The notes below the pieces were generated by a model. That model had not been told where the DNA came from and did not search any database. It saw nothing but the letters and a program-made list of their open reading frames with translations. 64,000 nucleotides of DNA from Burkholderiales bacterium (GTDB taxonomy: Bacteria; Pseudomonadota; Gammaproteobacteria; Burkholderiales; Burkholderiaceae_C), in assembly GCA_016185015.1 (NCBI GenBank), contig JACPOI010000022.1:1-64000 (forward strand), given 5' to 3'. Below are positions 5,697 through 61,393 of the stretch, piece after piece. Position 1 is the stretch's first letter; each line of letters begins with the position of its first letter. A program made the translations under genes and the position numbers.

Positions 5697-6278
5697 ATGT
5701 GGTCTCCCTTACGTCCTTTCCTGTTCGCCCTGCTGTTCGGCATCGGCCAACAGGTATCCGCTCTGGAAGTCGGCGGCGTCAATTTCGCGCCGCAAGTCGA
5801 AGTCAACGGCAGCAAGCTGGAGCTCAATGGCGCCGGCCTGCGCTACAAGGCGGTCTTCAAGGTCTATGCCGCAGGCCTTTATGTGGGCCGCAAAGCCAGC
5901 TCGCTGGAGGACATCCTCAAGGCTCCCGGCCCCAAGCGCATGAGCATCACCATGCTGCGCGACATCGATGCCGGCGAGCTGGGCAAGCTGTTTTCCCGCG
6001 GCATGGAAGACAACATGGACCGCGCCGCCTTCGTGCAGCTGATCCCCGGCATCATGCGCATGAGCCAGATCTTTTCCGACCACAAGAAACTGATGGCCGG
6101 TGACAGCTTCACCCTGGACTGGATCCCCGGCCAGGGCCTGTACATCGCGGTCAAAGGCAAGGTGCAGGGCGCCCCTTTCAAGGAGCCCGAGTTTTTCGCC
6201 GCCTTGATGGGCATCTGGCTGGGCCGGGTTCCTGCCGACTGGCAGCTCAAGAACGCCCTGCTGGATCTCAAGTCCTGA
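5697..6278 (+). CDS. Secreted chalcone-isomerase-like protein
   Basis: A 193-residue protein with an N-terminal signal peptide (hydrophobic LRPFLFALLFGIGQQ, likely cleaved after VSA at about residue 23). The rest matches the bacterial chalcone-isomerase-like family: VNFAPQVEVNGSKLELNGAGLRYK, VFKVYAAGLYVG, the LRDIDAGEL block and an FxPG-type end FFAALMGIWLGRVP. Bacterial members are usually periplasmic, and their substrate is unknown; the fold is shared with fatty-acid-binding proteins. The stop codon overlaps the end of the convergent GGDEF-EAL gene by 11 bp. GGAGG stands 9 bp before the ATG. Confidence 0.85.
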   Translation: MWSPLRPFLFALLFGIGQQVSALEVGGVNFAPQVEVNGSKLELNGAGLRYKAVFKVYAAGLYVGRKASSLEDILKAPGPKRMSITMLRDIDAGELGKLFSRGMEDNMDRAAFVQLIPGIMRMSQIFSDHKKLMAGDSFTLDWIPGQGLYIAVKGKVQGAPFKEPEFFAALMGIWLGRVPADWQLKNALLDLKS

Positions 6279-9200
6279 TGGCTGGGGGCCTGGCCTGGGC
6301 CCACCGCTCCAGGTCACCGGCGTTGAGGGGGCGGCTGAACAGATAACCCTGGCCCTTGCCGCAGCCCAGATCGGCCATGAGCGCGGCCTGCTCGGTCGTC
6401 TCGATCCCTTCGGCCACCGTCTGCAGGCCCAGCGTGCGCGCCATGTTGATGGTGGCGGCGATCATCACGCGGTGGTAGTTGCTGGTGAGCGCCTGACTCA
6501 CGAAGGAGCGGTCAATCTTGACCTGGTTGACCGGCAGCTCGTGCAGACAGGAGAGGGACGAGTAGCCGGTCCCGAAATCGTCCAGCGAGAGCGAGACACC
6601 GAGCGCGCGGATCTCGCGCAGGATGGCCTGCATGCCCTCGTCCTGGGCGGCCAGGCTTTCCGTCACCTCCAGCATCAGCGCACCCGGCGCCAGCCCGGCG
6701 CTGTACAGCAGCTCCGACAGCTTGGCGGTGAACCCGGCCTGGCGCAGCTGCGCACGCGAGAGGTTGACCGACACCGTCTCGGGGGCCTGCTCACCCAGCA
6801 GGGCGCGCAGGCGCACCAGCTCGTGGCAGGCGGTCTTCAGGACGAACTCGCCCAGACGGCCGATCATGCCCGTGGCTTCGGCCACCGGGATGAAGGTCAG
6901 CGGCGAGACCAGGCCGCGCCGCGGATGCGACCAGCGCGCCAACGCCTCCATACCCACCAGCCGCCCGCTGCCCAGCTCGATCATGGGCTGGTAGACCACG
7001 TGGATCTCGCCCTTGTCGACCGCCTGGCGCAGGTCGTTCTCCAGCTCTGCGTCGTCGTGCACGCGCTTGCGCATGGACGGCTCGAACATCTCGTAGCGCC
7101 CGCGCCCCTGGCGCTTGGCCTCGTACATGGCGATGTCGGCGTCGCGCAGCACACTGTCGGGGTCCTCGGCCATGTGGGCCGTGGTGACGATACCGATGCT
7201 GGCCGTGGAGTTCACGCGATGCGGACCGATCTGGTAAGGCTCGGCCAGCACCTCCAGCAGGCGCGAGGCCACCACCTGCGCGTCCAGGTCGCCACGGATG
7301 TTGTCCAGCAGCACCACGAACTCGTCGCCGCCGATGCGCGCGGCCATCTGGCTGAAATCACTGGTCTGCACGAAGGCGTCGCCGGGGCGCAGGCTGTCCT
7401 CCAGGCGCTTGGCGATCTGGCGCAGCAGCTCGTCGCCGACCGAATGACCCAGCGTGTCGTTGACCTGCTTGAAGCGGTCGAAGTCCATGAAGAGCACGGC
7501 AAAACAATAGCCTGCCTGCTGCCGGCTGCGCTGGATCGAGATCTGGATGCGGTTGAGCAGTTCGACCCGGTTGGGCAGGCGCGTCAGGCTGTCGGTGCGT
7601 GCGCTCTGCCGCAACTGTTCTTCCAGCTCCTTCTGCGCATTGATGTCGTAGCAGATGCCCGCCATGCGCAGGGCCCGCCCGCTGCCGTCGCGCGCCACCA
7701 CCGTGCCGCTGTACAGCGCCCACATCCAGGTGCCGCTGCCATGGCGTATGCGCACCTCCCAGTGCAGGGGCCGGCTTGAGTCGCGCAGGTTCGTGCGGAT
7801 GGCCCAGTCCCAGCCCTCGCGATCATCCGGATGGATCAGGCCGTGGAAGGTCTCCGAGGTCAGCTCCAGCCCCCCCGGCTGGTAGCCAAGGAGCGCCAGC
7901 ATACGGTCGTTGACGTCCATGCGACCGCTAGGAATGTCCCAGTGCCAGACCCCCAGAGAGGCGCTTTCGATGGCCAGCGTGAGCAACTGCTGCTGCTCGC
8001 GCTGCTGCGTCACATCCACCAGGCAGGAGATCACACCGGTCAGGTGCCCGGTGGCATCGTGCACCGGCTCGGTATTGACCATGTGCCAGCGCAGTTCACC
8101 CGCCATGCGCATGTGACCGACCAGTTCGCCGCGCAGGCCCACGCCGGTGCGCAGGGTCCGCACGCTGGGACGGTCCGCGTAGGGATAGGGCGTGAGGTCG
8201 GAGCACACCACCATGTCGTCGTCGGCCAGCCGGTCGCGGCCCAGCAGCTTCTGCTGCGGCAGGGCGAGCATCTCCTGCGCCTGCCGGTTGCACTCGATCA
8301 CCACACCGGCCGCCGACTGCAGCACCACGCCGGCCGGCATGATGTCCAGCAGGGTCTGCATGCGCACGCGCTGGTTGACGGTGTCGGTGATGTCCCTGGC
8401 CATCAGGGTGAAGCCGGTGTGCACGCCCTGGGCGTCATGGATGGGCTGGTAGTCGACATCGAGCCAGACCTCCTCGCCATGGCGCCCGCGGTGCATGACT
8501 TCGACCCGCACGGCCAGCCCCATGTCCAGCTCGGCGAGCAGGCGCGTCATTTCCTCGGGGTCGTTGTATTCATTGATGACCAGCAAGGCGGCATGCCGAT
8601 CCAGGACCTCGTCCCGCTCCCCGCCCTTGCCGCGCAGGAAGGCCTCGTTGCACCAGAGCACACGACGTTCGCGGTCCACCACGGCCACCCAGTTGGAGGT
8701 GCGCTGCGCCACCAGGGCCAGTCGCTGGAGCTCCATCGACTGGTTCAGCAGCACTTCACTCTGGCGCCGCACGAACAGCACCAGCGGCTCGGCCACCGCC
8801 AGGATCAGCAGCAGCAGCGCGCCGAGCATGACGTTGCTGGAAAACTCGATCCGGTCGAGGCTGGCGCGCGAGCGCCGCTGCGCCGCCAGCTGCAGCTCAT
8901 CCACCAGGGTTTGCGTGGTCAGCCAGAAGGACTCCAGCTCGGTCAGCAGGAACTGGGAGGCCGTCAAGCGCTTCCCCAGGTTCTTCTGGTCGAGCAGCCA
9001 CAGCAGGGCCTGGGTGCGATACCAGACCCGCTCTCGCCGCTCCTGCCATTCGAAAATGGCGCTGCGCAGCTGGGGGCGATCGTCGATCTGCCAGACCCCC
9101 TGACGCGACAGCAGCTCATCGAGCAGGGACGCCTGGGTTTGCGTCTGGCTGAGCGTCTCGCCCAGCGCATTCGCGTTTTCCTCTTCGCTGCCCTCGACGT

Positions 9201-9504
9201 GCTGCAGCCGGGTCAGCAACATGATCATGCGCTGGATCTGCGTCCCCTGGGCGGCAGCCACACGGATGATCTCGGCATCGGCCTGCCGGATCTGCTCGGA
9301 CAGCTGCTGCTGGCGCATCTGCCAATAGGTCAGTGCGCCCACCACCACCAGCACCGTGTACAGGGCCAGCCGCACCCAGCGGTGCACCTGCATGCCGCCT
9401 TCGGACTGGCGCCGCCCAGGCAGCCAGTCCAGCACGCGCCGCTTCCCGGCGCCGCGCTTTTCCTGCCGGCCGGCTGCGTTGGACGTGGTGTCGCTGCTAT
9501 TCAT
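6268..9504 (-). CDS. Membrane PAS-GGDEF-EAL protein (c-di-GMP turnover)
   Basis: A 1078-residue signalling protein. A transmembrane helix at about 45-61 and a second at about 226-247 enclose a periplasmic helical sensor region of about 160 residues. Three PAS-like domains follow (about 265-380, 385-500 and 505-630), then a GGDEF domain with intact RIGGDEF (diguanylate cyclase signature) and an EAL domain with MEALARWSHP and DDFGTGYSSL. Both catalytic motifs look intact. The RxxD inhibitory site expected five residues before GGDEF is absent. The net activity cannot be told from sequence. It sits alone, 80 bp after rpe. A c-di-GMP riboswitch lies 31 kb away in the same window. Confidence 0.93.
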   Translation of the reverse strand: MNSSDTTSNAAGRQEKRGAGKRRVLDWLPGRRQSEGGMQVHRWVRLALYTVLVVVGALTYWQMRQQQLSEQIRQADAEIIRVAAAQGTQIQRMIMLLTRLQHVEGSEEENANALGETLSQTQTQASLLDELLSRQGVWQIDDRPQLRSAIFEWQERRERVWYRTQALLWLLDQKNLGKRLTASQFLLTELESFWLTTQTLVDELQLAAQRRSRASLDRIEFSSNVMLGALLLLILAVAEPLVLFVRRQSEVLLNQSMELQRLALVAQRTSNWVAVVDRERRVLWCNEAFLRGKGGERDEVLDRHAALLVINEYNDPEEMTRLLAELDMGLAVRVEVMHRGRHGEEVWLDVDYQPIHDAQGVHTGFTLMARDITDTVNQRVRMQTLLDIMPAGVVLQSAAGVVIECNRQAQEMLALPQQKLLGRDRLADDDMVVCSDLTPYPYADRPSVRTLRTGVGLRGELVGHMRMAGELRWHMVNTEPVHDATGHLTGVISCLVDVTQQREQQQLLTLAIESASLGVWHWDIPSGRMDVNDRMLALLGYQPGGLELTSETFHGLIHPDDREGWDWAIRTNLRDSSRPLHWEVRIRHGSGTWMWALYSGTVVARDGSGRALRMAGICYDINAQKELEEQLRQSARTDSLTRLPNRVELLNRIQISIQRSRQQAGYCFAVLFMDFDRFKQVNDTLGHSVGDELLRQIAKRLEDSLRPGDAFVQTSDFSQMAARIGGDEFVVLLDNIRGDLDAQVVASRLLEVLAEPYQIGPHRVNSTASIGIVTTAHMAEDPDSVLRDADIAMYEAKRQGRGRYEMFEPSMRKRVHDDAELENDLRQAVDKGEIHVVYQPMIELGSGRLVGMEALARWSHPRRGLVSPLTFIPVAEATGMIGRLGEFVLKTACHELVRLRALLGEQAPETVSVNLSRAQLRQAGFTAKLSELLYSAGLAPGALMLEVTESLAAQDEGMQAILREIRALGVSLSLDDFGTGYSSLSCLHELPVNQVKIDRSFVSQALTSNYHRVMIAATINMARTLGLQTVAEGIETTEQAALMADLGCGKGQGYLFSRPLNAGDLERWAQARPPAIRT

Positions 9505-10761: not shown

Positions 10762-12762
10762 ATGCCGGCCTTTCGTGACCTGCCCAGCCTGCTGGAGGCG
10801 CTGGACCCCGAGGCAACGCTGGTCCAGCGCCATCTCTGGCTCGCCGCCCTGCTGGAGTGGGTGCGCGGCGACCAGAGCGACCCCGCCGTGTCCATCGAGC
10901 GTGTGCGACTGTTGCTGGACCTGCTCGAAGCGCAAGCCCCCCTGCGCGAAAGGCTGCAGGCCTGGTGGCTGGCCTTGCTGGACGGCCTGGACGCCACCAC
11001 GCTGCTGGCCGACCACGGCTTTGCCCAGCGCCCGGCCTTCCTCAGCGAGTTCTTCAGCCGCCTGCTGCGCAAGCTGCTGCCGGCCACGCCGCAGACGCGT
11101 GACGCCTCCGAGCTGTTCCTGCTGCTCTTTCCCCATCCCTATGACAGCCAGTGGCTGGCACAGCTCGATGAGGCCACGGTCGCCCGGCTGGACGCACTGC
11201 TCAGCCCGGCCGACGCGGCGGCACGCTCGCCCTGGGCGCTGGCGCTGGAAGAGTCCATCACCTACTGCATCAGCCAGATCCGGGCCATCGGTTTTGCCCC
11301 CGAACTGCGCCTGCGCATGAGCCCGGCCAGCCAGGAAACGCGTGCCTTCCAGAACCTGGCGGCCGATTTCGACGCCGTGCGCCTGGCCCTGCACCAGGGC
11401 CCGCCCGACGCCGACGCGCTGCTGCAGGCGGTGCAGCGCTTCAAGGAGCGGCTGGAGGCCTGTCGCCTGGCCGCCGCGAGCGTCTACACGCACCTGGACG
11501 AAAACGGCATCTCGGTGGACATGGTGTTTCGTCTGCGCCAGTTGCGTGAACGCGTGCTGCGCGTGCGCGAACTGCTCGACACCCTGCTCTCGCCCACGCC
11601 AGCCCTCAGCACGGCACGGCTGCTGGCCCACCTGACCCAGCTCGGGCAGCAAAGCCGCAGCGTGCGCGCCCTGATCGCCAGCAACTCCTCGCTGCTCGCG
11701 GCCAAGGTGACCGAGCGCAGCGCCGAGACCGGCGAGCACTACATCACGCGCAACCGCAGCGAGTACCGCGACATGCTGCGCAAGGCCGCCGGCGGCGGTG
11801 CCGTGATGTCGATCACCACCCTCGTTAAATTTGCGCTGCTGGGCCTGGGCCTCTCGGCTTTCTGGGGCGGCTTCGCCGCCGGCCTGAACTACGCCTTATG
11901 CTTCGTGCTGATCCAGCTGCTGCACTGGACCGTGGCCACCAAGCAGCCAGCCATGACGGCCCCGGCCATGGCCGCACGCCTCAAGGACCTGAACGCCCCG
12001 GAAGCGGTGGACCAGTTTGTCGACGAGGTCAGCCACCTGGTGCGCTCGCAAGTCGCGGCCGTGGCGGGCAATCTGCTGTTGGTCGTGCCCTGTGTGCTGC
12101 TGCTCAGCGGCGCCTGGTTCCTGCTCACGGGTCGCCCGCCACTGACTGCGCAGGAAGCCGACTACGTCCTGCACTCCCTCACCCTGCTCGGCCCCACGGC
12201 CCTGTTTGCCGCCTTCACGGGCGTGCTGCTGTTTGCCTCCAGCATCCTGGCTGGTTGGGCCGAGAACTGGTTCGTGCTGAACCGGCTCGATTCGGCACTG
12301 CGCTACAACCCGCGCATCACGGCCGTGCTCGGTGAGCAACGGGCGGCGCGCTGGGCACTCTTCCTGCGCAACAACATCTCGGGCCTGGCCGCCAACATCT
12401 CGCTTGGCCTGATGCTCGGCCTGCTGCCGGCTTTCGCCGCCTTCTTCGGCCTGGGGCTGGAGGTGCGGCACGTCACCCTCTCCACCGGCCAGCTGGCGGC
12501 CGCCGGCTTCACGCTGGGCCTGGACGTGCTGGCCCTGCCGGCCCTGTGGTGGTGCCTGGCCGCCGTCCTGGTGACCGGCGCCCTCAATGTCGGCGTGAGT
12601 TTCTATCTCGCTTTCCAGCTGGCACTGCGTGCCCACAACGTCAGCGGCGTGGACCGCGCCCGCATCTATGCAGCGATCCGCTCGCGGCTGCGCCACGCGC
12701 CGCTGGGATTCCTGTGGCCCCCACGCGAGGTGGCCCTTGCGCAGGAGGGCAGCGGTGGGTGA
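10762..12762 (+). CDS. Membrane protein of the Gcr 'site-specific recombinase' family
   Basis: A 666-residue protein. The N-terminal 350 residues are helical and soluble (ERVRLLLDLLEAQAPLRERLQAW, ENGISVDMVFRLRQLRERVLRVRELL). The C-terminal half holds several transmembrane segments, such as LVKFALLGLGLSAFWGGFAAGLNY and LLLVVPCVLLLSGAWFLL. The family conserves NRSEYRDMLRKAAGGG, ALNYALCFVLIQLLHWTVATKQPAMTAP and WAENWFVLNRLDSALRYNP. The recombinase name comes from early Neisseria annotation. I see no tyrosine- or serine-recombinase catalytic motif, so a membrane role is more likely. Its stop codon overlaps the thiL GTG start by 8 bp. Confidence 0.8.
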   Translation: MPAFRDLPSLLEALDPEATLVQRHLWLAALLEWVRGDQSDPAVSIERVRLLLDLLEAQAPLRERLQAWWLALLDGLDATTLLADHGFAQRPAFLSEFFSRLLRKLLPATPQTRDASELFLLLFPHPYDSQWLAQLDEATVARLDALLSPADAAARSPWALALEESITYCISQIRAIGFAPELRLRMSPASQETRAFQNLAADFDAVRLALHQGPPDADALLQAVQRFKERLEACRLAAASVYTHLDENGISVDMVFRLRQLRERVLRVRELLDTLLSPTPALSTARLLAHLTQLGQQSRSVRALIASNSSLLAAKVTERSAETGEHYITRNRSEYRDMLRKAAGGGAVMSITTLVKFALLGLGLSAFWGGFAAGLNYALCFVLIQLLHWTVATKQPAMTAPAMAARLKDLNAPEAVDQFVDEVSHLVRSQVAAVAGNLLLVVPCVLLLSGAWFLLTGRPPLTAQEADYVLHSLTLLGPTALFAAFTGVLLFASSILAGWAENWFVLNRLDSALRYNPRITAVLGEQRAARWALFLRNNISGLAANISLGLMLGLLPAFAAFFGLGLEVRHVTLSTGQLAAAGFTLGLDVLALPALWWCLAAVLVTGALNVGVSFYLAFQLALRAHNVSGVDRARIYAAIRSRLRHAPLGFLWPPREVALAQEGSGG

Positions 12763-27976: not shown

Positions 27977-28195
27977 TCAGCGCGGGACGGCGCCCGCGCA
28001 GGCCGCGCAGATGCAGGCCTGGCGCTGCGCCTGCGCCGGCACACGCGCCAGCAACTCCGGCGTGAAGGTCACCGTGGTGCACCAGCAGAGCGGCTGGGGC
28101 TGGCCGGTGGCCCGCTCGATCTCGTTGGCGCAACCATTGGGCTGGCCGCACAAGGGGCAGCGGCAAGGGTCGATGGCAGCTTGGGGGGTCTCCAT
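27977..28195 (-). CDS. Small cysteine-rich CWC protein
   Basis: A 72-residue protein with ten cysteines, arranged CRCPLCGQPNGC, CWC and CICAACAG, the pattern of the cysteine-rich CWC family. It probably binds zinc or another metal. Its function is unknown. It sits 51 bp upstream of the CDF metal transporter, which makes a link to metal handling possible but unproven. Confidence 0.8.
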   Translation of the reverse strand: METPQAAIDPCRCPLCGQPNGCANEIERATGQPQPLCWCTTVTFTPELLARVPAQAQRQACICAACAGAVPR

Positions 28196-39907: not shown

Positions 39908-40024
39908 GACGAGCCAGGACTATCAAGAAGCCCGTTCGATAGTTAGTATTCGCCCCCGTGCACACCGCGGCCAACCCTGAAGGTTTTGAGCCCAAAAGTA
40001 CCCGTACTGGTTTATATTCATGCC
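39908..40024. other. Intergenic segment upstream of the riboswitch
   Basis: No gene is supported. The stretch should hold the promoter for the riboswitch transcript. AT-rich TTTATATTC at 40011-40019 is the likeliest -10 region, but no convincing -35 can be named. The whole gap up to the first downstream gene (39908-40228) is 321 bp; the remainder is the aptamer and hairpins listed separately. Confidence 0.4.
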
Positions 40025-40115
40025 TGACATTTACCTTTGGCACACCCGTACGAAAGTCGGGGTCGCAAAGCCTCCGGTCTAAAGCCCACTGGGCACGATA
40101 GCGGGGTTGCCGTCA
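40025..40115 (+). promoter_or_regulatory. Cyclic di-GMP-I (GEMM) riboswitch aptamer
   Basis: The RNA has the conserved core of class I c-di-GMP riboswitches in order: GGCACACCC at 40039, the GAAA tetraloop at 40052-40055, GGGGTCGCAAAGCCTCCGG at 40059-40077, TCTAA at 40078, hairpin GCCC-ACT-GGGC at 40084-40094, GATAGCGGGGTTGCC ending at 40111. It matches the Vc2-type pattern nearly base for base, including the tetraloop receptor and the GCGGGGTT(A/G)CC end. TGAC at 40025-40028 and GTCA at 40112-40115 could add to the closing stem. It lies 117 bp upstream of a four-gene operon on the same strand. Confidence 0.88.
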
Positions 40116-40116
40116 A

Positions 40117-40180
40117 GACAGTCTGTATCAGACCGGCGCTTGTCGCAAACAGAAACGCCGCCTGCGTGTTTCTGTGTTTT
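40117..40180 (+). terminator. Probable riboswitch expression platform with terminator hairpin
   Basis: Directly after the aptamer come a hairpin GTCTG-TAT-CAGAC at 40121-40133 and a second with arms ACAGAAAC at 40149-40156 and GTTTCTGT at 40168-40175, followed by GTTTT at 40176-40180. The second looks like an intrinsic terminator, though its loop is 11 bases and the T-run short. Ligand-controlled termination before the downstream operon is the likely mechanism; whether c-di-GMP turns expression on or off is not visible. Confidence 0.55.
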
Positions 40181-40228
40181 GCCACCTCCCACTTTTGCCA
40201 GCGTGCCAGCCTTTGAATGGAAGCACGC

Positions 40229-40444
40229 ATGGAAGACCCGCAAGCAGAGTTCGCCCACCGCCCGCCGGCCACCGACGCAGAGACGGCATGGCGTGACACC
40301 CTGGCCGCCATGAGCGCGGTGTTGCAGGACTGCCTGGCCCCTCGCACCGCGCCGTCGCGCGAGATCGAGCGGGCCGAAGAAGCCCTGCGCGAATACACCC
40401 GGCGGGTACGGCAACAGAAGCAGCTGGCCGAGGCCGCGTTGTGA
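40229..40444 (+). CDS. Small unknown protein, first gene after the c-di-GMP riboswitch
   Basis: A 71-residue acidic/basic helical protein (MEDPQAEFAHRPPATDAE, then AWRDTLAAMSAVLQDCLAP and REIERAEEALREYTRRVRQQKQLAE). No family is recognised. I start at the ATG at 40229, with GGAAG five bases upstream; an in-frame ATG at 40217 lacks a ribosome site. It has no signal peptide or membrane helix, and its C-terminal half may form a coiled coil. The stop overlaps the next GTG (GTGA). Confidence 0.65.
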   Translation: MEDPQAEFAHRPPATDAETAWRDTLAAMSAVLQDCLAPRTAPSREIERAEEALREYTRRVRQQKQLAEAAL

Positions 40445-40686
40445 ACCCGTCCGACGCCATGGCAGAGCCCCAGCAGGAAGCCGCCACGGCGAAAACCCGT
40501 GCGGTGCGCGGGCGCATGTCGCCCGCCCTGCCGGGCTCGCTCGACCCGCAACGTGACAAGCAGCGTTTTTGCATCGGCGAGTGCCAGGCCGACCGGCCCG
40601 AAGTCGGTGGCGTGGAAACCTCGCCCGGCCGTTTCCGCTGCGCCAATTGCTGGGCCGCCTTCCAGGCCCGGATGAAATTTCGCTGA
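40441..40686 (+). CDS. Small unknown protein with four-cysteine motif
   Basis: An 81-residue protein starting at a GTG that overlaps the previous stop codon by 4 bp. The N-terminal half is low complexity. The C-terminal half has FCIGECQADRP and RFRCANCWAAF: two pairs of cysteines about 27 residues apart that could bind one zinc ion. It is not recognised as a named family. Its coupling to the preceding gene supports real coding. Confidence 0.65.
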   Translation: MNPSDAMAEPQQEAATAKTRAVRGRMSPALPGSLDPQRDKQRFCIGECQADRPEVGGVETSPGRFRCANCWAAFQARMKFR

Positions 40687-40727
40687 GACCGCACCTGCCT
40701 CCCCGACATCACCACCTGAGTACCACC

Positions 40728-41306
40728 ATGCTGCCCCAGATCAAGACCCTGCTCGGCCAGAAGACCGCCGCCCCAGCCCAGCGCGAAACCCGTGCGGAAC
40801 GCATGCCAGCCGACGAGGGCATGCGCTATCGACGCGAGATGCTCTACCAGTCCATCCGCGAAAGCATGCTGGCCATGGAAGTGCTCTCCAACATGTACAA
40901 GTTCAAGGTGGTGAACGTCGACCAGCAGCACGAGGTCTTCATTGCCATGATCGAGGTGAGCAAGCTGTTCGAGGCCAAGTGGAACGGCACAGCCGCCAGC
41001 TTCGCCCAGGCGGAGCAGCGCATGATGACCGGCGCCATGAACCGCGCGGGCGTCACGCTGCAGGGCGTCTTCTGGCGCGTCGACGAATCGGTCGACGCCT
41101 TCGCCATGCCGGCCCGGGCCGGCGACGGCGCCGAGCAGGCACGGGCCGCCACAGCCATGCGCACACGTGAAGTCCCGGGTGACGTCTCCCACGCCCGGGT
41201 GCGCCTGGCGCGCCGCAGCGCAGAGACGCCCGCCGAACCGGCCGGCAGCGCCCCTGCCGCCAGCGGGAAAAGCGACATCGGCAGCACCCAGTACGGGCAA
41301 CTCTGA
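40728..41306 (+). CDS. Unknown 192-residue protein in the riboswitch operon
   Basis: No known domain is recognised. The central region (about residues 35-120) is well ordered and helical: MRYRREMLYQSIRESMLAMEVLSNMYKFKVVNVDQQHEVFIAMIEVSKLFEAKW is longer than shown in most databases' short motifs, with a repeated pattern of charged helices. The C-terminal 60 residues are Ala/Pro/Arg-rich and probably disordered. There is no signal peptide. It starts 41 bp after the previous gene and ends 8 bp before the HDOD gene, so it belongs to the same transcript. Confidence 0.68.
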   Translation: MLPQIKTLLGQKTAAPAQRETRAERMPADEGMRYRREMLYQSIRESMLAMEVLSNMYKFKVVNVDQQHEVFIAMIEVSKLFEAKWNGTAASFAQAEQRMMTGAMNRAGVTLQGVFWRVDESVDAFAMPARAGDGAEQARAATAMRTREVPGDVSHARVRLARRSAETPAEPAGSAPAASGKSDIGSTQYGQL

Positions 41307-41314
41307 AACACCCC

Positions 41315-42139
41315 ATGGAACTTGCCAGCCTGCTCCACTCCCCCGCCGCGCTTCCGAGCATTCCTCGCGTGATCGCGCTGCTGCTGGCCGAACTCGACCG
41401 GGACGAACCCGACCTCTTCCAGATCAACCGGCTCCTGGGCCAGGACCCCGTGCTGACCACGCGCGTGCTGCAACTCGTCGGCACGGCCTACCATCAACTG
41501 CAAAAGCCGATCACCAGCGTGAGCGAGGCGATGGCCCTGGTGGGCCTGCAGCAGGTGCGCGAGCTGGCCTATGCCGCGGCCGCCACGAGCGCCTTCCGCC
41601 AGGTCGGCAACGTGGACATGCCGCGCTTCTGGCGCTACAGCCTGAACGTGGCCAAACTCACGCGGCACCTCGCCAAGGACGCCCGCCATCCGGTGTCGCC
41701 GTTCACGGCCGGGCTGCTGCACGGCCTGGGCATGCTGGTCATGCACCTGGGCATGCCCCGGCAGATGGAGGAACTCGACCGTCGTATGCCCCTGTACGCT
41801 CCGCAGCGACACAGCGCCGAATACGAACAGGTTGGCTACAACTACGCCCAGGTCGGAGCCGACCTGGCCCGCGCCTGGCAGCTGCCGCAGGTCTTGGTGG
41901 ACATCCTGGAACACCAGGACGCGCCCTTCGAGCGCGACAACTATGAGCCCCTCAGCGGCATCCTGCACCTGGCCGTATGGCGCTGCCGCGCCATGGAGAT
42001 GGGCTACACCGACGAGGATCTGGCGGAGACCTTTCCCGAGACCACGGCCCTGGCCCTGCAGCTGGACCTGCACGACGTGCTGGACCGCGACCCCATCGCC
42101 TGGACCACGGCGCAGGAAGTGGCCGCCCTGACCGGCTAG
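41315..42139 (+). CDS. HDOD-domain signalling protein
   Basis: A 274-residue protein filled by an HDOD domain, a degenerate HD fold common in signal transduction. It shows LPSIPRVIALLLAELDRDEPDLFQINRLLGQDPVLTTRVLQLVG, KPITSVSEAMALVGLQQVRELA and FTAGLLHGLGMLVMHLGMP, followed by LPQVLVDILEHQDAPFERDNYEPL. HDOD proteins often act with c-di-GMP networks in motility and biofilm control. As the fourth gene after the GEMM riboswitch it could feed back into that network. Confidence 0.88.
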   Translation: MELASLLHSPAALPSIPRVIALLLAELDRDEPDLFQINRLLGQDPVLTTRVLQLVGTAYHQLQKPITSVSEAMALVGLQQVRELAYAAAATSAFRQVGNVDMPRFWRYSLNVAKLTRHLAKDARHPVSPFTAGLLHGLGMLVMHLGMPRQMEELDRRMPLYAPQRHSAEYEQVGYNYAQVGADLARAWQLPQVLVDILEHQDAPFERDNYEPLSGILHLAVWRCRAMEMGYTDEDLAETFPETTALALQLDLHDVLDRDPIAWTTAQEVAALTG

Positions 42140-59851: not shown

Positions 59852-60125
59852 TTAGAGCCTGCTCACGGTATCGCAGGGGTCGCGTTGGGGTGCAATCGGG
59901 ATGAGTTGGCCGCGAAGATCACGCCGCATGGGCTCATGCCCATGCAAGGGATTTGGTGGACAAATCGCCCGATTTCGCCCCAACCCGAAGGGCAAGCGCC
60001 TTGCCGGGCGGTCTGCGGCGTTGCAAAGCCTCGCCGGGCATTGAGCCCGGCATCGTTTTGCGCCTTGCATCCCATCCCGGCAAGGTGCTTGCGCGGCCCC
60101 TGCGATACCGTGAGCAGGCTCTTAA
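59852..60125. repeat. 270-bp element with 25-bp perfect inverted ends (MITE-like)
   Basis: Positions 59855-59879 and 60097-60121 are exact reverse complements over 25 bases; the first 20 are GAGCCTGCTCACGGTATCGC. Similarity continues inwards more weakly, for example GGGATG near both ends, and TTA/TAA flank each side. Inside is a hairpin GCCGGGC-ATTGA-GCCCGGC followed by ATCGTTTT. The right end abuts the stop codon of the diguanylate cyclase gene. No transposase is encoded. Small open frames inside are not supported as genes. It fills the whole 352-bp gap. Confidence 0.8.
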
Positions 60126-61393
60126 AGCGGGCTGAACTGGGTCTGCCCGGGCTCGTAGGCCAGCACGCGGTTGCGCCCGGCGGTCTTGGCGGCGTAGAGC
60201 GCCTTGTCGGCGCGCTGGGTCAGGGTTTCGGCCGTTTCGCCGGGCGCCAGCTGGGCCACCCCGACCGAAACGGTGATGCCGAAGTGGCGCCCGCCCTCGC
60301 CCGTGAACGCCAGGTCGGCGATGGCCAGGCGCACGCGTTCGCCGGCCTCCACGGCCTGCGACAGGGGCGTAGCCGGCAGCAGCACGATGAACTCTTCCCC
60401 ACCCCAGCGGCCGAAGATGTCGCTGCCACGCAGCGTTTCCTGGGCCCGAGTCGCCAGGCGCCGCAGCACTTCGTCACCCACCGCGTGGCCGTGCGTGTCA
60501 TTGACGCGCTTGAAGAAATCGATATCGAGCAGGAGGATGGAGAAGTCCTCGGGCTGGCGCTCCCAGGCCTTGACCTGGCGGCGCAATTCGGCCTCGATGT
60601 GGCCGCGGCGGAAGGCGCCGGTCAGGCCGTCGCGGATGGCCAGTTCGCCGAGCTTGCGGTTGCTGAGCTCCAGCTCCTGGGTGCGGCTGCGCAGCAACTC
60701 ATGCATCTGCAGTTCATGCTGGATGTTCTGGTGCAGCTGGTCCAGCAGCTTGCGCTGGGTCAGGCGCGCACGTACCCATTCGCGCGTGCGCCGGTGCTCG
60801 CCCCGGCTGCGCACCAGCAGCATGACCGCATAGACCACGAAAGCCCAGTTCACCACCGGCAGCTCCTGGACAAAACCCGGGTAGTGCCGGTGCAGTTGCC
60901 ACACCGTGCCGGCCACGATGGCGGTCATGAAGCTGGCGTAGAGCCGCATCTCGATGCCCAGCGCACTCAGCAGGAAGGCCACGAGGGCCACGATGAAGAT
61001 CAGGCGCAGGAAGAACAGCGCATCGACCTGACCCGTGCCTACCATGGTGATGCTGCCGACCCAGACGGCGGCCAGGCCGATGGAGCCCAGCCACTCCAGG
61101 CCGAACCACAGCCGCCCGTGCACGATCTGGGTCCGCGGCAGGACCGACAGGAAAACATGGGCCAGCACGACGCGAAAGGCGAGCACCAGCAGGGCACAGC
61201 CGGCCCACAGCAGCAACTGCCCGAGCGGCTGGGCCGTCCAGTGCGACCAGACGATCAGGAATACCGGCAGGAAACCCACCAGCGCCGATTCACGCGTGCG
61301 CGCGAAGAGCTCGCGCATCATGCGCGTCTGGATGGCCTCTTCCTCCAGCCTGGGCAGGCTTTCGGGGTAGATCGAGGCAGGTGAGGTGTTCAC
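60122..61393 (-). CDS. Membrane diguanylate cyclase
   Basis: A 423-residue protein with six predicted helices (about 35-200, including LVGFLPVFLIVWSHW and LIFIVALVAFLLSALGIEM), a coiled-coil linker (LLRSRTQELELSNRKLGELAIRDGLT) and a GGDEF domain with active-site GGEEF. The inhibitory I-site RGSD stands exactly five residues before GGEEF, so product inhibition is expected. It makes c-di-GMP, the ligand of the riboswitch at 40.0 kb. Divergent from the LysR gene. Confidence 0.93.
   Translation of the reverse strand: MNTSPASIYPESLPRLEEEAIQTRMMRELFARTRESALVGFLPVFLIVWSHWTAQPLGQLLLWAGCALLVLAFRVVLAHVFLSVLPRTQIVHGRLWFGLEWLGSIGLAAVWVGSITMVGTGQVDALFFLRLIFIVALVAFLLSALGIEMRLYASFMTAIVAGTVWQLHRHYPGFVQELPVVNWAFVVYAVMLLVRSRGEHRRTREWVRARLTQRKLLDQLHQNIQHELQMHELLRSRTQELELSNRKLGELAIRDGLTGAFRRGHIEAELRRQVKAWERQPEDFSILLLDIDFFKRVNDTHGHAVGDEVLRRLATRAQETLRGSDIFGRWGGEEFIVLLPATPLSQAVEAGERVRLAIADLAFTGEGGRHFGITVSVGVAQLAPGETAETLTQRADKALYAAKTAGRNRVLAYEPGQTQFSPL

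Follow-up and report, generated by a model that had tools for sequence, protein, structure and literature searches.

Can an operon behind a cyclic di-GMP (c-di-GMP) riboswitch in a Burkholderiales bacterium be regarded as a new output module of c-di-GMP? The question is raised by four genes in the first 64,000 nucleotides of contig JACPOI010000022.1 (assembly GCA_016185015.1; this whole stretch is called the window below): three open reading frames (ORF1, ORF2 and ORF3) and a gene for an HDOD protein, which a sequence-only reading had placed behind a class I (GEMM) aptamer and proposed as an undescribed output module. Judged by its sequence, the riboswitch is a member of the known class, and what stands behind it is a small lineage-specific operon, not a widespread new output system. 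With a probability of roughly 0.6, we read the locus as a standard c-di-GMP-I riboswitch heading an ORF1-ORF2-ORF3-HDOD transcript, which would have been gained as a unit, would act in the c-di-GMP network and whose expression would follow c-di-GMP.

A complete aptamer in front of four genes

A scan with the Rfam GEMM-I covariance model (cmscan) had been set beforehand as the test of the aptamer: it gave an RF01051 match of 62.7 bits, well above the gathering score of 35 (E 6.9e-10), untruncated and spanning model positions 1–87 of 87, which bears out the aptamer claim. The likeness to the c-di-GMP-I class extends to the GAAA tetraloop and the GCAAAG core. The first position of GGCA, which we take to be the ligand-specificity position G20, reads G, and this presumably marks the c-di-GMP rather than the cyclic GMP-AMP (cGAMP) type. 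Such a numbering is consistent with the residue numbers in PMC3764141. The aptamer is conserved in the homologous leaders of two other genomes, Curvibacter sp. PAE-UM (G205) and a third module-bearing genome (G211); between these and the window genome (G000) it is near-identical, despite a diverged promoter region in G205.

The four co-directional genes follow as had been read, the start of ORF2 overlapping the stop of ORF1 as GTGA, with gaps of 41 bases between ORF2 and ORF3 and of 8 bases between ORF3 and the HDOD gene (Table 1). An in-frame ATG at 40217 is an alternative start of ORF1, giving 75 residues. Pairwise ratios of non-synonymous to synonymous substitution rates (dN/dS) lie between 0.11 and 0.41 for the four genes, compared with 0.09–0.15 for the neighbouring TauE gene, and therefore support all four as coding genes.

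The module in related genomes

Among the 26 genomes of the genus set, 15 of which reach 90% completeness with a contamination of 5% or less, ORF2 was found in three: the window genome, G205 and G211. The gene order TauE, aptamer, ORF1, ORF2, ORF3, HDOD, DUF1304 is the same in all three, and the tblastn identities of G205 and G211 to the window are 85–88% for ORF1, 80–84% for ORF2, 86–88% for ORF3 and 94–95% for the HDOD protein. DUF1304 is present in 15 of the 26 genomes, 12 of these being devoid of the module. One of the twelve, G219, displays an empty site: a TauE homologue (89%) lies directly before DUF1304 (94%), with nothing between, and no GEMM match occurs in this assembly, which is 85% complete. 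In the other 11, neither TauE nor the module lies inside the 1.5 kb examined. The simplest reading of this comparison is that the module was gained as one unit rather than lost in G219; the block would have entered between the TauE-type permease gene and the DUF1304 gene in an ancestor of three Curvibacter-like species (Curvibacter is placed in the Comamonadaceae by the NCBI taxonomy, and the window's family presumably corresponds to the Comamonadaceae with their near kin).

Table 1. Features of the riboswitch operon, all on the plus strand of the window
Feature	Position	Strand	Support
Candidate promoter −10 region (GGTTTATATTC, 40009-40019) and putative transcript start zone	40009..40028	+	Common to G000 and G211, not G205
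c-di-GMP-I (GEMM-I) aptamer, C/U subtype	40029..40114	+	Rfam, 62.7 bits; conserved in G205 and G211
Hairpin and four-U tract, candidate weak terminator	40149..40180	+	10 pairs in G000 and G211, 9 of 10 in G205
Possible anti-aptamer strand, able to pair with the aptamer's 5' half	40177..40209	+	Duplex-energy shuffles
ORF1 Shine-Dalgarno-like GGAAG and start codon	40219..40231	+	Sequence; conserved in three species
ORF1, 71 residues, ATG at 40229, similar to part of GGEEF diguanylate cyclases	40229..40444	+	dN/dS 0.28
ORF2, 81 residues, GTG start, four-Cys, zinc-ribbon-like	40441..40686	+	dN/dS 0.40-0.41
ORF3, 192 residues, unnamed family, predicted alpha-beta-beta-alpha-beta core, C-terminal TQYGxL	40728..41306	+	dN/dS 0.13-0.14
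HDOD-domain protein, 274 residues	41315..42139	+	PF08668; dN/dS 0.11-0.14

The four proteins

None of ORF1, ORF2 and ORF3 matches a Pfam or NCBIfam family above the cut-off (the single Pfam match, for ORF3, is at E 0.3), in agreement with the earlier statement that no family was recognised for the first three products. A profile built from ORF1 only nevertheless matched in two other genomes of a sample of 399, with E values per genome of 4.5e-6 and 2e-4; both matches, from two species of one genus, lie inside a GGEEF protein whose adjoining gene reads as EAL. The reverse profile, made from the N-terminal regions of 10 cyclases without any ORF1 row, placed the three ORF1 orthologues at the top of 6291 ORFs (from the window and the loci that were fetched), at E 4.4e-4, 4.7e-4 and 7.2e-4, the next ORF being at 0.062; its independence is partial, as 8 of the 10 cyclases had been found by a profile (A6) containing both ORF1 and cyclase rows, which biases the result in favour of ORF1. 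ORF1 aligns to the segment W..V...LS.T.Q..L....APS.E of PTPENYARAY-type GGEEF diguanylate cyclases. Unlike these proteins it has just 71 residues and no GGDEF domain: Pfam gives no match for one, and the shared part is a linker-like segment only. We consider ORF1 as probably related to this cyclase segment, a confidence lowered by one step because those 8 cyclases came from the ORF1-holding profile. An origin of ORF1 within its own genome was also considered and rejected, the genome's own cyclase of the same family (G000:C2:76881) having no similarity to ORF1.

In ORF2 the cysteines 44, 48, 67 and 70 are invariant in the three species. Its profile matched weakly in 6 further genomes of the 399, and three of these loci were examined: two from one genus (L209 and L211) carry short CxCC..CAxCW proteins which look related to ORF2 and adjoin a gene reading as thiolase, and the third (L215) is unconvincing. 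G205 and G211 are not listed among the ORF1 and ORF2 matches of this sample. A weak match of ORF2 to phrog_54, a DksA-like zinc finger, has an E of 0.026.

ORF3 belongs to a widespread family: at E 0.001, relatives occur in 71 of the 200 genomes sampled from the window's family, own genome included, and the window genome has two further paralogues on other contigs. The 42 collected members share the core RRExLYxxxRExM...VLSxxYKFKVxxxD...VYWR, and 31 of them have TQYG near the C-terminus. The AlphaFold model predicts a helix-strand-strand-helix-strand arrangement, with a predicted local distance difference test (pLDDT) score of 61–85 by block over residues 21–120; a sequence search of the PDB gave a best E of 0.71. 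The relatives adjoin genes read by eye as mnmE, coaD, accA-tilS and others, without a shared theme; L160:3954-4658 is one example of the family, and one own-genome copy lies behind a gene reading as mnmE.

The HDOD protein matches PF08668 over the whole profile (1–196 of 196; 146.2 bits against a cut-off of 22.9, E 1.1e-42), with no further Pfam match above the cut-off. It does not read as an HD-GYP or HD phosphodiesterase: the HDIG model scores 16.6 bits, below its cut-off of 27.6, and by eye LLHGLG stands at the expected HD position. HDOD relatives at E 1e-30 occur in 66 of the 200 family genomes, own genome included, and the window genome has two further paralogues on other contigs. Among the fetched ORF3 and HDOD loci (the 30 best of each, mostly flanked by 1.5 kb, plus 17 with longer surroundings), relatives of the two proteins are found together only at the window and PAE-UM loci. 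PMC6543031 describes SadB, GsmR and HdpA as HDOD proteins with roles in motility or attachment, and reports that SadB of Pseudomonas fluorescens has an HDOD domain and binds c-di-GMP. The window protein shares the HDOD domain with these three; it differs from SadB, for which the same source gives an extra YbaK-like domain, in being HDOD only by Pfam.

GEMM-I sites, their targets and two aptamer subtypes

Our set of GEMM-I sites comprises 111: 95 from 58 genomes of the 200-genome family sample, and 16 from further genus genomes (9 of the 26 genus genomes have at least one match). The four proteins were compared by tblastn with all 111 downstream stretches, about 1.5 kb long for 30 of them (the window's own and 29 of the 108 others). 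The module stands behind three sites, all of one lineage; the check for the small genes beside GEMM aptamers more widely is thus negative, and the module as a recurrent GEMM partner is rejected.

Among the 104 first genes behind the other GEMM sites of family and genus, Pfam assigns S8 proteases (21), FliE (12), HAMP (7), MCP (5), two-partner secretion proteins (3) and others, as counted from the first 25 of 52 families. The window operon is of another kind than these usual c-di-GMP-I targets.

Two facing positions in the 3x3 internal loop that adjoins the first helix at its GC pairs covary; we take them to be positions 24 and 43 of Vc2. A simple pattern could read the subtype in 99 of the 111 aptamers, leaving 12 unread: 40 are A/A, 55 are C/U and 4 show other combinations, some of which are perhaps misreads. 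The covariation has a Fisher p of 7e-24 on the 2x2 core of 98 sequences, which are related to one another, and both subtypes coexist in 13 genomes. Their targets differ: S8 proteases follow 18 of 37 A/A sites and 2 of 51 C/U sites (p 8e-7), FliE none of the 37 and 12 of the 51 (p 1e-3). Three A/A and four C/U sites were excluded from this count (the three module sites, one masked site and three without a usable gene). The module aptamer is C/U, a subtype also found ahead of flagellar and chemotaxis genes in the same family, and this gives mild support for a role in motility or signalling.

The window genome has a second GEMM-I aptamer (C33:205685-205768, 64.3 bits), followed by a G+C-rich hairpin with a ATTTTTGTT tail. 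The ORF behind it (L003:5686-6877) reads by eye as a single membrane protein of no family that we recognised, and G205 has a similar putative membrane protein after a GEMM (L192). An ORF of 597 residues (L003:7300-9093, on C33), some 1.5 kb downstream of the second GEMM, reads by eye as a fusion of a reverse transcriptase-like part (YADDL) with a trypsin-like protease domain.

In the literature searched, which leaves most subscription journals outside, a c-di-GMP riboswitch and HDOD appear together only for a Vibrio phosphodiesterase. Within the same coverage we found no description of the window operon, of the A/A and C/U subtypes or of ORF3, no c-di-GMP riboswitch with Comamonadaceae, Burkholderiales or Acidovorax, and nothing relevant for a Curvibacter riboswitch.

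Control by the leader

The hairpin between the aptamer and ORF1 pairs ACAGAAAC (40149-40156) with GTTTCTGT (40168-40175), and inner G-U and C-G pairs read from the sequence bring it to 10 pairs (40149-40175). One pair is A-U in G000, an A-C mismatch in G205 and G-C in G211; another is G-U in G000 and G-C in both relatives. It had been called terminator-like: the hairpin stands, but a strict scan does not recognise a terminator, because only GTTTTGCC follows the stem, so that the term holds loosely only. The fold of the whole 212-nucleotide leader is unremarkable (z −1.54; 12 of 200 shuffles as good).

Binding of c-di-GMP to the aptamer would refold the leader, and the refolding may alter either the passage of transcription through the hairpin or the access to the ribosome-binding site (RBS) of ORF1; the expression of the four genes would thereby track the c-di-GMP level, in one direction or the other. 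A transcriptional switch, with the hairpin as an intrinsic terminator and a ligand-stabilised P1 altering read-through, is plausible at somewhat under even odds. The position of the stem is kept in the three species and its tail, TGTTTTG, is identical, and P1 and the hairpin stand together in the lowest-energy folds of G205 and G211 at 150–160 nucleotides. Against it, besides the negative scan and a stem trailed by four Us only, the lowest-energy 150-nucleotide fold of the window leader lacks P1, and no antiterminator common to the three species was found, the AGACCGG/CCGGUCU pairing being lost in G211. A translational or mixed switch can be put forward tentatively: the 3' arm of the hairpin (40163-40172, able to base-pair with 40220-40229 around the ORF1 start) or the post-hairpin GCGUGC (40201-40206) would capture the ORF1 start, while in the other state the 5' half of the aptamer would pair with 40177-40209. 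The arm-to-RBS duplex is reached by few shuffles in G000 (7 of 500) and G205 (11 of 500), but by 87 of 500 in G211, which is not significant; in G211 the GCGUGC pairing (post-hairpin against RBS) is weak as well (346 of 500; 45 and 63 of 500 in G000 and G205). The duplex of the aptamer 5' half with the post-hairpin segment is reached by 30, 0 and 2 of 500 shuffles respectively, and is contained in the lowest-energy 190-nucleotide fold of all three leaders. However, the regions of these targeted tests were selected after inspection of the folds, so that their result is given little weight; over the whole 120-nucleotide downstream stretch the three leaders (z −0.98, −1.34 and −2.56 in G000, G205 and G211) are unexceptional among the 111. 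A general anti-aptamer design across GEMM leaders is rejected, with a mean z of −0.22 over the 111.

The translational proposal resembles what is described for Bc1, a c-di-GMP-I riboswitch of Bacillus thuringiensis, in PMC11218506: there c-di-GMP unfolds terminators and traps the RBS, which demonstrates that both can be combined in one c-di-GMP-I leader. The window leader likewise has a hairpin between aptamer and RBS, and may capture the RBS; it differs from Bc1, reported to have two terminators with poly-U runs and to control mcpE, by its one hairpin with four Us and its unrelated operon. Termination and translational control appear about equally plausible. That the aptamer is inert, the operon being expressed irrespective of c-di-GMP, is in our view improbable: a GEMM match is lacking in 17 of the 26 genus genomes (many are incomplete), and Bc1 barely responds in vivo according to PMC11218506, but the aptamer of the window matches its model over the full length and has stayed near-identical in three species while the promoter region of G205 diverged.

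Other features of the window

The two GGDEF proteins that had been noticed in the window are indeed there, both on the minus strand: 6271-9504 (PAS, GGDEF and EAL) and 60125-61393 (GGDEF). Lying about 31 kb and 18 kb from the operon respectively, they say little in support of an output module. The window also encodes a 72-residue cysteine-rich CWC protein (27977-28195, minus strand; PF14375, E 1.3e-13) and a 666-residue protein (10762-12762, plus strand; PF10136 SpecificRecomb, E 1.3e-221). A phage or defence origin of the four operon proteins was rejected: they have no PADLOC match and just two weak PHROG matches, both of ORF2 (the one cited above and one at E 0.031).

What the operon may be

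The c-di-GMP network is where the products of the operon most likely act. The proposed parts are a small protein related to a cyclase segment, a zinc-ribbon-like protein, a copy of the conserved protein ORF3 and an HDOD protein that would be a non-catalytic scaffold. Both the ORF1-cyclase resemblance and the HDOD protein are consistent with a function connected to c-di-GMP, and the operon is lineage-specific and probably signalling-related.

Several observations weigh against this proposal. ORF2 is missing from 23 of the 26 genus genomes, a set with 15 complete and clean members by the thresholds above; none of the four proteins matches at the other 108 GEMM sites, so that the notion of an output module is tied to one lineage. 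The similarity of ORF1 to cyclases is modest, its two profile matches rising to E values of about 0.002 and 0.08 once multiplied by the 399 genomes, and it does not extend to the own genome's cyclase. The ORF3 model, made from three sequences, has a mean pLDDT of 61.1, and compared with the PDB it finds no match at E 0.001 (the best, at E 0.024, is a cation-transporter C-terminal domain); no function is assigned by fold. Scanners, finally, report neither a sigma-70 consensus site upstream of the aptamer nor a terminator in the leader. Part of the sequence-only claim survives, namely a real riboswitch, first three products without a Pfam or NCBIfam match above the cut-off and a block kept in three species; a recurrent partnership with GEMM is not supported. 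Paralogues of both ORF3 and the HDOD protein lie at other places in the genome, and GEMM regulons rich in unknowns are already on record, with 114 genes of unknown function counted under GEMM control in PMC3766115.

A more specific proposal is that of a self-contained feedback cassette, gained as one unit, in which the riboswitch would gate a free-standing regulatory segment of cyclases (ORF1) together with HDOD and ORF3 adaptors binding cyclases or partners, retuning c-di-GMP. We regard it as unlikely; if true, it would be an RNA-gated cyclase-modulator operon.

ORF3 opens an unnamed protein family, spread over more than a third of the genomes sampled from the window's family. A c-di-GMP riboswitch gives, through the genes behind it, a fast entry to new c-di-GMP physiology, because the switch identifies the signal ahead of the gene function; the operon offers three small uncharacterised proteins behind a clear aptamer, and the relative with the empty site is a natural control.

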